The notes beneath the pieces were generated by a model. That model saw nothing but the letters and a program-made list of their open reading frames with translations. It was not told the DNA's origin and ran no database searches. This document shows positions 45,543 through 52,060 of a stretch of DNA of 64,000 nt, piece after piece. The translations under genes and the position numbers were made by a program. Location of the stretch: NCBI GenBank assembly GCA_007996965.1, contig BIMP01000001.1, positions 1,240,001 to 1,304,000 of the forward strand, given 5' to 3'. Each line of letters starts with the position of its first letter. The first letter of the stretch is position 1. This DNA is from a cyanobiont of Ornithocercus magnificus (GTDB lineage Bacteria; Cyanobacteriota; Cyanobacteriia; PCC-6307; Cyanobiaceae).

Positions 45543-46097
45543 ATGAAACCAGCACCTCTCAGTATTGCAGGACCACAGCAACTCCAAAAGTGGATTGCTC
45601 TAAATGACACTGTAATGGGAGGTTCTAGTCAGGCTAGCTGCTTTATAACGCCTGAAGGACTCCTCTTGAAAGGCGAGCTAGTTGAGCGTGCAGGAGGGTT
45701 TGTGAGCTGTCGGTCACCCCGTTTCGCACCACCTCTAAATCTATCAGCATACAGCGCCCTCAAATTGGAGGTAGAAGGCGAAGGTAGAACACTGAAACTT
45801 GCCTTGGCCTGTTATGATAAAGCGTTTGGCTTGACTGAATTAATTCCTGGTGGTCTTCGCTGGGTTGCTCCGTTACCTACTCAGGCTTCTGGCATCAGCG
45901 TTATTACTGTTCCCTTTAGAAATCTCTGTCCCACTATTCAAGCGCGACCGCTTAAGTTGCCCCTAAGCTTCGATCCTGGCAAAGTTACGCGGCTGCAAAT
46001 CTTGTACTCAAAGTTCTCCGCAGAGGGTGGTACTAATCCTAGTTTCTGTCCAGGGCCTGTCCGAATTTTGCTGCGCTCGGTGCATGCTGTTGACTAA
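45543..46097 (+). CDS. CIA30-family protein
   Basis: 184 residues. WIALNDTVMGGSSQASC is the hallmark motif of the CIA30 (complex I intermediate-associated protein 30) fold, and the C-terminal QILYSKF..GGTNPSFCPGPVRILL fits its galactose-binding-like beta sandwich. In mitochondria CIA30/NDUFAF1 helps assemble complex I. The bacterial role is not settled; a link to NDH-1 assembly is inference. The last 14 nt overlap the next gene. Confidence 0.85.
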   Translation: MKPAPLSIAGPQQLQKWIALNDTVMGGSSQASCFITPEGLLLKGELVERAGGFVSCRSPRFAPPLNLSAYSALKLEVEGEGRTLKLALACYDKAFGLTELIPGGLRWVAPLPTQASGISVITVPFRNLCPTIQARPLKLPLSFDPGKVTRLQILYSKFSAEGGTNPSFCPGPVRILLRSVHAVD

Positions 46098-46509
46098 TTT
46101 TCCTGTTACTGAACTTAAGGCATTGATCGCTGCATCAGCTGATCGATGCCTTAAGCCTTGGAAGCATGCTGTCGTCTCAGCCCCTGATACTAGAGAAGAC
46201 AGTGAACCGCCAGAAGACATTGAGGAGCTCGTGGTCAAAATTGAGTGTCGTGACCCCAAAGGCCAACGCCAGCCTCGCCGAGACCTTGAGTTAGAAATCT
46301 ATCCTAGCGGCTCTAGCTTCAGCTTGATGCTTAGCTGGTGGGGTCAGCCCACTCGTCCGATGCTTTGGCAAGGTCAGCATCCTGTCTGGATCGATGGACT
46401 AAGTGGCTGTCGTTGTGAAGCACCTCCAGATGGGTCTTCACTTGAGATTCTGGCCCGTCGATTGCGTATTCTTTTGAAGAGTGATCTATCCAGCATATGT
46501 CAGTCCTGA
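46084..46509 (+). CDS. Conserved hypothetical protein coupled to CIA30 gene
   Basis: About 141 residues from the ATG at 46084, inside the end of the CIA30 gene. The centre is acidic ([19 protein letters not shown]) and then reads [20 protein letters not shown] and [14 protein letters not shown]. No family is recognised. The overlap with the upstream gene and the regular beta-like composition support a real gene. Its end overlaps ilvD by 10 nt on the other strand. Confidence 0.65.
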
Positions 46510-48170
46510 TCAGTGATAGCACCTTGGCTACTGGTACTAACCAGGCGAGCATATTTACCTAGGACTCCTGTCCTGTAGCGAGGTTCCGGGCGCTTCCATG
46601 CCAATCTACGTCGTTCCAACTCATCCATGTCAACATTTAGTTGCAGCAGTAATAAGTTTGCATCAATAGTTATGCTGTCGCCTTCTTTAACAAGCCCAAT
46701 CATTCCGCCGACAGCTGCCTCTGGCGCAACGTGACCAACCACAAGACCGTAGGTACCGCCACTGAAGCGGCCATCAGTGATTAGAGCAACCTTATCGCCA
46801 AGGCCTTGACCAACAATAGCAGAAGTGGGCGCAAGCATTTCGCGCATCCCAGGTCCACCGACTGGTCCCTCGTAGCGAATTACTAGAATGTCCCCTGCGC
46901 GGATGCGCTTATCAAGAATTGCAGCCAGACATTCTTCCTCACTATCAAAGACTTGAGCAGGGCCTGTCAGCACTGGCTTCCTTACGCCACTAAGCTTGGC
47001 AACACTGCCCTCACTGGCTAGGTTTCCTTTGAGAATTGCCAGATGCCCCTTGGGGTAAATTGGATTGTTAATAGGTCGGATTACATCCTGATCCAAAGGG
47101 GGCGCCGGGGGAACGTGAGCTAGTAACTGTTTCAGGGTTAAGCCCTCTACAGTTTGACAATCGCCATGCAATAAACCTGCATCTAGCAATATTCGCATCA
47201 CCTGCGGGATGCCTCCAGCGCGGTGCAGATCCACAGTCACATAGCGGCCACTGGGCTTGAGATCACAGAGCACTGGCACTTGCTGACGGATTCGTTCAAA
47301 GTCATCTATGCTTAAGCTAACTCCAGCTGTGCGCGCTATAGCCAGCAGATGAAGCACAGAATTTGTCGAGCCTCCCACTGCCATAATTACGCTTATGGCA
47401 TTCTCAAAGGCCTCAAGCGTGAGCAGGTCGCGTGGCCGTATGTTTGCCTGCACCGCCTGCATTAGCACTTCAGCAGAACGTGCAGCACTCTCTGCTTTCT
47501 CTGCATCTTCAGCAGCCATTGTAGAACTATAGAGAAGGCTTAATCCCATTGTCTCAATGGCAGCACTCATAGTGTTAGCTGTAAACATGCCTCCACAGCT
47601 GCCAGCACCAGGGCAGGCATTCTTCTCAATAGCTGTTAAACTCGCCTCATCAATGCGCCCACTAATGAGTTGCCCTACAGCCTCAAAAGCACTCACTACA
47701 GTCAGATCAGAACCATTAAGATGGCCGGGCTTGATTGTGCCACCATAAACAAACACGGCAGGGATATTCATCCGGGCCATGGCTAATACTGCTCCGGGGA
47801 TATTCTTATCACACCCCCCCACCGCTAGCACACCATCCATGCTCTGAGCATTGCAAGCTGTCTCGATTGCGTCAGCAATTACCTCGCGACTGACAAGGGA
47901 GTACTTCATCCCCTCTGTACCCATGGATATTCCATCACTGACGGTGATCGTTCCAAAAGTCTGGGGCATTCCGCCAGCTGCACGTGCAGCTTCCTCAGCA
48001 CGTTGTGCCAAATTATTCAAGCCGACGTTGCAAGGTGTAATTGTGCTGTACCCATTGGCAATGCCAATAATTGGCTTGTTGAAATCGTCATCACTAAAGC
48101 CCACTGCCCGAAGCATGGCCCGGTTGGGAGAGCGTTTGATACCCTGCGTAATGACAGTGGAGCGAAGCAT
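46500..48170 (-). CDS. ilvD: Dihydroxy-acid dehydratase
   Basis: 556 residues. The iron-sulfur ligands are in GGCDKNIPG and [17 protein letters not shown], and [17 protein letters not shown] is the conserved C-terminal motif. It makes the 2-keto acid precursors of valine, isoleucine and leucine. It starts at the ATG at 48170 after IPC-type N-terminus ([19 protein letters not shown]), typical for the family. Confidence 0.97.
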
Positions 48171-48217: not shown

Positions 48218-48523
48218 TCATTCTTGGCTGCCAAGCTTCTCAAGTTGTCGCCGCACGTCAGCTATGGCGGAATTGAGAGAGGCCACCTTAGCCTCTAGCT
48301 GAGTATCGTTAACCGGCGGAGCGATGAGGTCTTGAGCCTCTGAACCATCTTGCAGCCTTGGTGCATAGAGCATGGCTTCCTGGCTACGCTGCCGCCGCCT
48401 CCGCTCTGCTTCTGACAATAACCACCACGCCAGGCTAGCCGCTCCTATTACGACTCCTCCGAACAGTGTTGTGAGACCTCCAGTGGTGGAGTTCTGCTCG
48501 GATCCCATTGGCATAATCTGCAT
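48218..48523 (-). CDS. Small membrane protein with coiled coil
   Basis: 101 residues. A glycine-rich membrane segment (LTTLFGGVVIGAASLAWWLL) at about 18-37 is followed by a basic stretch (EAERRRRQRSQ) and a C-terminal heptad-like helix (LEAKVASLNSAIADVRRQLEKLG). The layout suggests a membrane-anchored helical protein. Family not recognised. It lies 7 bp after the UPRTase-like gene on the same strand and upstream of ilvD. Confidence 0.65.
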   Translation of the reverse strand: MQIMPMGSEQNSTTGGLTTLFGGVVIGAASLAWWLLSEAERRRRQRSQEAMLYAPRLQDGSEAQDLIAPPVNDTQLEAKVASLNSAIADVRRQLEKLGSQE

Positions 48524-48530
48524 CTAGCTT

Positions 48531-49154
48531 TCAGGTTAAGGTGATGCTGCCCGTCTTAAGATTTAGGCGCTTTACCGGGTCTCCAAAACCTGGGCTAACC
48601 AGGCCACTATCTGTAAGATCAGGATCAATACAGGCACTGTAAATAGTGAGATCTGGAAGGCACTCGCCAAGCTGTTTCAATCCTGCACTGGACGCCAAGG
48701 CGGCAATCACTCGTAGCTGTCTAGGGTTACAGCCTTGTTCTAGAAGCGACCTGATTGTTGCTAGCAGCCGACTGTCACCTCCAATCTGGTCTGTATATAT
48801 TATTAGGCCTTCATGTGTGCTAACATGTCCCGGTACTCCATCTATGCACAGAGAAGCGTTGGGCAAGACAGTACGCCCACCTTGCCATAGAAATATACCT
48901 GCTGGTGGCAGTAGCAACACTATTAAGCTGATGCTAGAGTTAATGACGTTGCTTGTAACACTTGCCAGCGGCGTTTCCACCATCTCTTGCTGATGTGGCA
49001 ACCAATCCCTCACAGCTTCATATGTGAGCCAGCGGCCGAGCTCCTCTAAAGCGACAGTGACTAGAGCTGGTGGTGTCGATCGATGACGAAGCACCGTAAG
49101 CCAGTGGGCGATTAGGGGGTGTGGTGGCACCACTACCCGCAGTGTTATTGCCAT
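48531..49154 (-). CDS. UPRTase-like protein lacking the PRPP loop
   Basis: About 207 residues from the ATG at 49154 (another ATG at 49193). The framework of uracil phosphoribosyltransferase is recognisable: HPLIAHWLTVLR, RWLTYEAVRDWLP, and PDLTIYSACIDPDLTDSGLVSPGFGDPVKRL. The PRPP-binding loop expected as DPMLATGGS reads TDQIGGDSR here, and the late GDAGDR becomes GDPVKR. A catalytic UPRTase is therefore doubtful; a regulatory or binding role is possible. Confidence 0.75.
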   Translation of the reverse strand: MAITLRVVVPPHPLIAHWLTVLRHRSTPPALVTVALEELGRWLTYEAVRDWLPHQQEMVETPLASVTSNVINSSISLIVLLLPPAGIFLWQGGRTVLPNASLCIDGVPGHVSTHEGLIIYTDQIGGDSRLLATIRSLLEQGCNPRQLRVIAALASSAGLKQLGECLPDLTIYSACIDPDLTDSGLVSPGFGDPVKRLNLKTGSITLT

Positions 49155-49242
49155 AGTGCATGGATTGGTTTGAGCCGCCATAACAGTGGCCAACTCAAAT
49201 TACTTGTCTCTCAAGGCTAACCTGGTTTGTTCGGACCTTCTG

Positions 49243-49764
49243 ATGTACTACTTATCCACACGTTTTCTGAAAAGCCACCTCATATCCTTTGCAGTGGCAT
49301 TCTGCATTTCGTTTATTGCTTTCCCTCTTTGCTCTGCTCAGGCAATTACTGCACCGGAACTACGTGGTCAACGTGCTATGCAAGACATATCTAGCGATAT
49401 GCATGGTAGGGACCTAAAGCAGCAGGAATTTCTTAAAGCTGATCTTCGGCAGGTTGACCTTGGTAAAGCTGACCTTCGCGGTGCTGTGATTAATACATCA
49501 CAGCTGGATGGTGCTGATCTTCGCGGTGCTGATCTCGAGGATGTAGTTGCCTTTTCTAGCCGTTTTGATGGTGCCGATCTTCGCGATGCAAACCTCACTA
49601 ACGCAATGCTTATGCAAAGCCGCTTTGATGAGGCCCATATTGAAGGAGCAGATTTTAGCAATGCAGTGATAGACTTGCCCCAGCAAAAAGCCCTGTGCGC
49701 GAGAGCCAGGGGTGTCAACAGTCGCAGTGGAATTAGTACACGCGAGAGCCTAGGTTGTCGCTAA
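49243..49764 (+). CDS. Secreted pentapeptide-repeat protein
   Basis: About 173 residues from the ATG at 49243; the frame is open to 49186 but overlaps the divergent gene. A signal peptide (SFAVAFCISFIAFPLCSAQA) is followed by pentapeptide repeats of the A(D/N)Lxx type: KADLRQVDLGKADLRGA, DGADLRGADLED, DGADLRDANL. They should form a right-handed quadrilateral beta-helix in the thylakoid lumen or periplasm. Function unknown. The stop overlaps the CobW start. Confidence 0.87.
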   Translation: MYYLSTRFLKSHLISFAVAFCISFIAFPLCSAQAITAPELRGQRAMQDISSDMHGRDLKQQEFLKADLRQVDLGKADLRGAVINTSQLDGADLRGADLEDVVAFSSRFDGADLRDANLTNAMLMQSRFDEAHIEGADFSNAVIDLPQQKALCARARGVNSRSGISTRESLGCR

Positions 49765-51382: not shown

Positions 51383-52060
51383 TTGCCCTGGCCACACTTG
51401 CATCAAATCCAAACCGCCACAGAGCTGTTAGACTGGATTATCAGCTTCGATGCTCGAAAAGTTAGGGACCGGGTCGCTTCAATGCGACACCGCTGGCCCG
51501 ATGCAACACCTTATGAATTAGCTGAGCGGGCTTTTGCATCAGCACGTTTCCGTGTCATTGCTGCTGGGGCTGCACTGGGCATAGCAGCAAATCCTGCACT
51601 CACTGTAGCTAGTACCCTAGCTGATGTCTCGATGACCACGCGTACTCAGGTGTTCGCAGCTGCTTGTGCTGCCGAACTTCTCATACCAGGTTTTCTTGAC
51701 ACTGAGACAGCTCGTTATGAGCTTCTTCTTCCAATATTTGGAACAAGCGTGCTCAGTCAGATCGGGATTGAGCTCGGGCTTAAAGCTACACGCTTTGCTA
51801 CCCGAGAGATGATACTGAAAGTACTCAGCAGTCACACTGCTACTACAATAGGCAAGATGCTGAGCTACACATTCGGGCTACGACTCAGCCAGCGTGGCCT
51901 TGCTACCAAGACTGTGCCAGTTGTTGGCGGCATCCTAGGCGGAACCTGGAATGCTGTTGAAGTAGAGATAGTTCGTATACGAACATTGCGTTATCTGACT
52001 AACCAGGCTATGGATTTAGGTGACGCAATCGATATTGACGTTGTCACTGTCACAACTTAA
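51383..52060 (+). CDS. EcsC/DUF697-like protein (tentative)
   Basis: 225 residues from a TTG at 51383, right after an in-frame stop. Two hydrophobic/alanine-rich regions (FRVIAAGAALGIAANPALTVASTLADV, TQVFAAACAAELLIPGF) and a late KTVPVVGGILGGTWNAVEVE resemble the EcsC or DUF697 pattern of paired amphipathic helices ending in a PxxGGxxGG turn. The match is by eye only. It is isolated by gene-free DNA on both sides. Function unknown. Confidence 0.6.
   Translation: MPWPHLHQIQTATELLDWIISFDARKVRDRVASMRHRWPDATPYELAERAFASARFRVIAAGAALGIAANPALTVASTLADVSMTTRTQVFAAACAAELLIPGFLDTETARYELLLPIFGTSVLSQIGIELGLKATRFATREMILKVLSSHTATTIGKMLSYTFGLRLSQRGLATKTVPVVGGILGGTWNAVEVEIVRIRTLRYLTNQAMDLGDAIDIDVVTVTT

Follow-up and report, generated by a model that had tools for sequence, protein, structure and literature searches.

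A probable pseudoenzyme derived from uracil phosphoribosyltransferase is retained in Prochlorococcus and oceanic Synechococcus

A gene in the window (the whole stretch of DNA analysed here, 64,000 nucleotides) encodes a protein with the predicted fold of a uracil phosphoribosyltransferase (UPRTase) in which most of the active site has been lost. We put at roughly 0.9 the probability that this window protein is a UPRTase-derived pseudoenzyme under selection. What it is kept for is a more tentative matter: the explanation we prefer, at slightly less than even odds, is a thylakoid-linked role that needs no catalysis, either as a scaffold or as a regulator.

Results

The UPRTase scaffold is retained

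The window protein is encoded on the minus strand (Table 1). It matches the Pfam UPRTase family at E 3.9e-27, the match being split over two stretches, and scores 95.5 bits against PF14681, above the gathering cut-off of 27. It falls below both NCBIfam equivalog cut-offs for Upp (TIGR01091 and NF001097; 94.2 of 114 and 87.5 of 208.35 bits), and PyrR models were absent from its profile matches. An AlphaFold2 model built with 32 homologues was confident (pLDDT 89.9, pTM 0.86). When this model was searched against the PDB with Foldseek, the best 27 rows were all UPRTases, two of which (1v9s and 2e55) carry locus names and were identified as UPRTases by a separate listing. In a structure comparison, 14 UPRTase entries gave Z values of 20.5 to 25.1, while the other entries listed reached at most 11.3. 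In the predicted structure, the scaffold is that of a UPRTase over nearly its whole length; a retained scaffold had been proposed by an earlier, sequence-only reading of this DNA, and structure prediction and comparison with Upp recovered it.

Table 1 Features of the window discussed in the text.
Feature	Coordinates	Strand	Basis or remark
Window protein (UPRTase fold, active site lost), 207 aa	48531..49154	-	ATG at 49154, stop at 48531, 207 codons; open frame, Pfam, AlphaFold, alignment
N-terminal hairpin, residues 1-53, with W18/W42/W51 of cyanobacterial type; best conserved part	48996..49154	-	conservation
Former loop I (ILRAG), now LPPAG, residues 82-86; PRPP-binding Arg is Pro84	48897..48911	-	alignment
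Site of deleted flap (second PRPP/catalytic Arg in UPRTases), residues 101-106	48837..48854	-	alignment
Former PRPP loop, now TDQIGGDSR, residues 121-129	48768..48794	-	alignment
Former uracil-binding PGLGDAGDR, now PGFGDPVKR, residues 188-196	48567..48593	-	alignment
Putative Ssl2009-type small membrane/coiled-coil protein, 101 aa	48218..48523	-	7 bases after the UPRTase-like gene; another ATG at 48508
ilvD, dihydroxy-acid dehydratase, next downstream	46500..48170	-	NCBIfam-annotated context
Pentapeptide-repeat protein, divergent neighbour upstream	49186..49764	+	NCBIfam-annotated context

The active site has been dismantled

The same reading held that the PRPP loop of Upp, DPMLATGGS, is replaced by TDQIGGDSR and that the C-terminal uracil-binding GDAGDR is replaced by GDPVKR. 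In an alignment of 166 distinct sequences both replacements are in register, and no intact PRPP loop displaced elsewhere was seen in the window protein or in its aligned relatives. Within the uracil-site motif, PG.G, the first Asp and the last Arg are kept and the middle is replaced. The alignment revealed two losses beyond those already noted, namely the substitution of the loop-I arginine by proline and the deletion of the RDE/RNE flap. In the UPRTase of Mycobacterium tuberculosis, PRPP binding and catalysis are assigned to Arg77, Arg102 and Asp198 (PMC3570474). Using known motifs and the glycine at the C-terminus of that protein to fix the numbering, we equated Arg77 with the arginine of loop I, Arg102 with that of the flap and Asp198 with the first Asp of GDAGDR. 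On this mapping of ours the window protein keeps only the equivalent of Asp198, a position that is Asn in 59% of rows in its own 44-row clade (described below). Compared with Upp, the window protein thus shares the fold over residues 4-201, the N-terminal HPL..L..R...T motif, PG.G and the last uracil-site Arg, and differs in the absence of the PRPP loop, both PRPP arginines and the flap, as well as in its scores below the two equivalog cut-offs. From these losses we infer that UPRTase activity is probably absent.

An enzyme of low activity, still making UMP in the cell with the help of a partner, has been argued for in the case of the Drosophila protein Kri. According to PMC4536494, Kri lacks two glycines of the uracil site and nevertheless recognises 4-thiouracil in vivo, and purified human UPRT, in which uracil-site residues are missing, is inactive in vitro. 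These animal proteins resemble the window protein as conserved UPRTase homologues with an altered uracil site; they differ from it in that, in the account given there, both keep the PRPP site, whereas in the window protein the PRPP loop has gone, together with both arginines and the flap. Moreover, PyrR could supply the activity in the 48 of 50 genomes in which it is full-length. We therefore regard residual UMP synthesis by the window protein as very improbable.

The disarmed state defines a clade and arose more than once

A scan of a genome collection returned 72 related loci. The altered loop (hereafter, disarmed) is shared by all 31 full loci closest to the window, at 47-59% identity, whose titles name Prochlorococcus, Synechococcus or uncultured cyanobacteria akin to them; L104, which ends before the loop, was left out of this count. 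The remaining loci range from intact to disarmed, some salt-water strains, among them Synechococcus WH 5701 (L084) and Black Sea BSA11S, being intact. A further 20 loci from another scan were also disarmed. An assembly artefact or a lone odd genome is ruled out by the recurrence of the disarmed state in the 31 full loci (L037-L066 and L108).

For a tree, 194 loci were reduced to 166 with the window by removal of L001-L006, the partial L104, the foreign copy L168, sequences of fewer than 150 residues and identical sequences, and then to 133 rows by removal of those with at least 93% identity; motif columns were excluded. Cyanobacterial-type UPRTases and canonical Upp fall on opposite sides of a branch with support 100, at which long branches meet. 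The cyanobacterial type is present in all 24 other genomes of the window's class that were examined, six of which carry canonical Upp as a second UPRTase (L109-L114 as against L139-L144). In the ten genomes of other classes whose loci were read, the UPRTases are all canonical. The proposal that the protein derives from Upp is accordingly upheld as regards descent from a UPRTase and needs revision as regards the source, which on the tree is a separate cyanobacterial-type UPRTase clade and not ordinary Upp.

The 133 rows were scored on four active-site elements: 58 are intact (14 of them canonical), 55, including the window, have lost all four, and 20 have lost part. The partial class includes L052, the only member of the disarmed clade with a loop-I Arg. 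Counted as intact are copies with a changed PRPP loop, DPILARG (L018, L022, L024, L036 and L107); these form a group close to L079, titled Candidatus Synechococcus spongiarum, and have the PRPP-loop Thr replaced by Arg with the other scored elements kept, possibly an early step of loss.

Intact and not-intact states require three changes on the tree, and the starred branches alone force at least two. The window sits on a long branch (0.68) within a starred clade of 44 rows (support 97), in a tree of which many forks are weakly settled. A separately disarmed clade, L161/L164/L167 (support 100), sits among intact rows. With the root placed at the canonical rows, and provided that activity was never regained, the active site has been lost at least twice. 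The 44 tree rows that lack the flap are exactly the 44 rows of the window's clade, and 39 of these have the loop-I proline. The disarmed state thus defines a clade of Prochlorococcus and oceanic Synechococcus, the group with the altered loop for which a profile search had been suggested.

An N-terminal hairpin is conserved and the former pocket carries new residues

Residues 1-53 of the window protein are 66%, 74% and 81% identical to L116, L084 and L047, respectively, whereas identity over residues 54-207 is 31%, 33% and 41% (L116 and L084 are intact; L047 is Synechococcus WH7803). This N-terminal conservation is partly general to UPRTases, since the canonical L109 and L118 show the same contrast (40% and 38% in residues 1-53; 27% and 19% elsewhere). 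W18, W42 and W51 are conserved at 85% or more in both the intact outgroup and the disarmed rows and are not the commonest residues in canonical Upp.

At the former active site, by comparison, mean conservation over segments 117-130 and 186-200, which is 0.83-0.94 in the intact groups, drops to 0.53-0.62 among the disarmed rows ('marine' rows in this comparison being those without the flap). New residues have become common within the 44-row clade: Gln123 is present in 44 of 44 rows, Asp122 in 91% and Pro193 in 95%. Of the 75 disarmed rows, those of the L161/L164/L167 clade included, 50 have Gln and 10 have Glu at the position of Gln123. Not every copy has Gln123: G146 (L205, outside the tree) has Thr in a loop reading KDTISDGFS, while G185 and G241 have Gln. 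To judge from these sequences, the pocket loop seems to have taken on a different job and not simply to have decayed.

One such job, and the main rival to our preferred explanation, would be that of a ligand sensor. Having given up PRPP, the pocket would still bind some small molecule, be it a pyrimidine, a nucleotide or something else, and the protein would signal this to a partner, as in regulators derived from phosphoribosyltransferases. The recurrence of Gln or Glu in the pocket loop of separately disarmed copies and the prevalence of Gln123 and Asp122 in the 44-row clade would fit such a sensor, as would five residues in or close to the uracil site (P188, G189, G191, R196 and D177) that are conserved across the canonical, intact and disarmed groups. 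The drop in conservation of the two pocket segments argues the other way, and we consider a sensor unlikely, though worth retaining as a rival.

The appearance of the conserved polar residues Asp122 and Gln123 might instead reflect a remodelled pocket that catalyses a different reaction. Little of the PRPP loop is left, however, and the flap has disappeared along with the two PRPP arginines; Asp122 is not invariant, Gln123 is exchanged in G146, and the neighbouring genes hint at no substrate; a new enzyme is, in our estimation, improbable.

The gene is retained under purifying selection

The UPRTase-like gene was found in 264 of 271 genomes of the family that are at least 90% complete, using a profile (A1) of 32 disarmed proteins, with intact and disarmed copies counted together. 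The seven genomes without a match are drafts of 30-60 contigs. In 15 of 15 overlapping pairs of disarmed copies, dN/dS (omega) lay between 0.037 and 0.257; these values come from disarmed copies other than the window's, whose own branch has no close pair, and some of the pairs carry up to about 14 in-frame codons upstream of the start. For most pairs omega is within the range of neighbouring genes, and in genus g18, with genomes of 1.6-1.7 Mb, the values (0.14-0.26) are at the upper end of that range. Rows near or above 1 look like wrong-strand open frames and were not taken as controls. The disarmed copies are under purifying selection.

PyrR is a bifunctional pyr regulator and UPRTase, and so, like the preferred reading of the window protein, a phosphoribosyltransferase with a regulatory job; it belongs to another subfamily. 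In the window's genome it is a separate gene elsewhere, with a normal-looking PRPP loop (VDDVIFTGRT). Across the 50 genomes it is broken in only two, two full-length copies that had been flagged with a stop ending there normally. In one genus it is broken by stops and frame breaks in three of 13 genomes (G085, G109 and G129, all single contigs), and the UPRTase-like frame is open in these three, with an omega of 0.087 for G085/G109 (L187/L188). The same genomes thus let a catalytic-type protein decay yet keep the apparently dead one.

Gene decay in the course of genome streamlining would account for the reduced conservation of the former active site and for the seven genomes without a match. 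It is difficult to reconcile with omega values of 0.04-0.26, with the open frames in the copies read, with retention in genomes of 1.6-1.7 Mb, or with the visible decay of PyrR in genomes whose UPRTase-like gene does not decay. We find this explanation scarcely credible. The earlier description of the window protein as non-catalytic, by comparison, agrees well with the loss of the PRPP loop, both PRPP arginines and the flap from a fold that is kept, under purifying selection and in nearly all genomes, and is probably correct. The further suggestion in that reading, a binding or regulatory protein, names a putative function.

A normal upp elsewhere in the genome was searched for, and no second Upp was found in the 95.6% complete draft of the window's genome, which yielded only PyrR. 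Besides PyrR, the only frames of this genome that match PF00156 are two long ones, of 337 and 490 residues, which from their lengths we take to be Prs and PurF. A PF00156 match of 173-199 residues (perhaps Apt) seen in G085, G094, G252, G030 and G024 is absent from the window's genome, maybe owing to an assembly gap.

In one genome, G029, the main copy is disarmed (L178) and stands alongside a second, divergent UPRTase (L168), which has the normal PRPP loop DPMLATGQS and may be of foreign origin. This coexistence suggests that the two copies are not interchangeable. The possibility that uracil transport accompanies the active enzyme was considered and discarded, since no such pattern was apparent: the uracil/xanthine permease family PF00860 matches in nine of 50 genomes, eight of them among the 30 disarmed and one among the 20 intact. 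Two of the matches are strong (G071 and G023, both disarmed) and seven, in frames of 537-647 residues, are weak and were taken to be other transporters. Seven stretches of viral contigs yielded no relative.

A small membrane protein gene accompanies cyanobacterial-type UPRTases

The small membrane coiled-coil protein that the sequence-only reading had placed beside the UPRTase-like gene is a real open frame. It has one hydrophobic stretch and a C-terminal LN.AI..VR..LE motif. Against the NCBIfam ssl2009 thylakoid family (NF053524; 'thylakoid' here is the family name given by NCBIfam) it scores 31.6 of 58 bits, below the curated cut-off, whereas all 23 members of a profile (A2) of the neighbour match the Ssl2009 family at E values up to 0.001. 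Its own score being below the cut-off, assignment to this family draws on gene order, the iterated profile and the shared motif, which together support membership.

In the window's class, which we take to be oxygenic, the Ssl2009 model scored above its cut-off in all 24 other genomes, and the gene lay beside a UPRTase match in 22 of them (coordinates compared by hand). Among distinct outgroup rows, an Ssl2009-type neighbour accompanies 21 of 23 cyanobacterial-type genes and none of 16 canonical ones. Elsewhere in the phylum, 34 genomes from other classes gave nothing above the cut-off; this absence holds only at the level of the cut-off, since 31 of the 34 gave weak hits, some as strong as the window's. 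Bacillus subtilis also gives a weak hit.

Across the 194 loci, an Ssl2009-type gene lies downstream of the UPRTase-like gene on the same strand in 139. By class, the two genes are adjacent at 50 of the 53 loci that lack the flap, at 36 of the 38 remaining disarmed ones and at 18 of 35 intact Cyanobiaceae loci; at L037 and L045 the Ssl2009-type gene is about 1.2 kb away. Profile A2 gave one match in each of 50 Cyanobiaceae genomes. When these were compared by hand, with kin genomes counted repeatedly, the two genes lay side by side in all 30 disarmed genomes and in 11 of the 20 intact ones, and apart in the other nine intact ones.

This adjacency is not specific to the pair, because the whole block is conserved: among flap-less loci, 49 of the 50 with 2.5 kb or more of downstream sequence have ilvD in this position, and all 51 with 1.5 kb or more of upstream sequence have the divergent pentapeptide gene. 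In a mirror-tree comparison of 102 loci, UPRTase-like and Ssl2009 distances correlated at r 0.39, as against 0.64 and 0.55 for each of them with ilvD. No co-evolution of the pair beyond that with ilvD was detected in these loci (partial r 0.048; 154 of 999 permutations as high). Two further frames of the window have no NCBIfam match, at 51383-52060 (+, 225 residues) and 45543-46097 (+, 184 residues).

Discussion

The keeping of a disarmed protein beside the gene of a probable photosynthetic-membrane protein suggests an old, non-enzymatic job. On the explanation we tentatively prefer, a scaffold or regulator linked to the thylakoid, the cyanobacterial-type UPRTase would once have had a second, non-catalytic role besides making UMP. 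Picocyanobacteria would then have stopped needing the salvage reaction, uracil salvage being either absent or left to PyrR, and the PRPP and uracil sites would have been remodelled or deleted while the protein was retained for its second role. The folded protein, probably a dimer, might now serve as a scaffold or regulator on the surface of the thylakoid, with the conserved N-terminal hairpin (W18, W42 and W51) meeting a partner, for which the Ssl2009 protein would be the first candidate.

A broader version of this idea is that the cyanobacterial-type UPRTase, also in plastids, has an ancient non-catalytic function in the thylakoid or photosynthesis together with Ssl2009, and that picocyanobacteria kept only that function and discarded the enzyme. 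We consider this extension doubtful. Plastid UPP sequences are probably of the cyanobacterial type. The plastid UPP of Arabidopsis, whose role in photosynthesis is reportedly independent of catalysis, and the upp of red algae resemble the window protein as UPRTases of a compartment derived from cyanobacteria, and differ from it in that the plastid enzymes are taken as active. A review citing Ohler 2019 ascribes to UPRT a pronounced function in establishing photosynthesis (PMC9312225); by analogy, the plant work points the same way as a thylakoid-linked role. In the red alga Grateloupia, upp is listed in the plastid gene table of PMC3716797, and the word 'upp' is absent from the main text of two other plastid papers (PMC3667073 and PMC12816646).

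A precedent of another kind is provided by the pseudo-orthocaspases of cyanobacteria, which PMC6426788 presents as presumed pseudoenzymes with a proposed role in photosynthesis; being caspase homologues, they belong to an unrelated family. In the literature searched, which mostly lay outside subscription papers, we found no description of a disarmed cyanobacterial UPRTase. UPRTase relatives of doubtful activity were already known in animals, and what differs here is the loss of the PRPP site, and its occurrence in a picocyanobacterial core gene. According to a study of Prochlorococcus (PMC11698098), internal recycling extends to purines but not to thymidine, which is exuded; a dead UPRTase fits this.

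Picocyanobacteria are among the most abundant phototrophs, and a core gene of Prochlorococcus and oceanic Synechococcus, to which a profile search would give the name uracil phosphoribosyltransferase, encodes a protein that probably cannot carry out that reaction. Metabolic models relying on the name would therefore add a uracil salvage step that the cells lack. If the broader, plastid-inclusive version is true, the picocyanobacterial protein would be a natural separation-of-function version of plastid UPP. For plants, the disarmed protein offers a direct test of whether plastid UPP contributes to photosynthesis through its catalysis or through contact with a partner.
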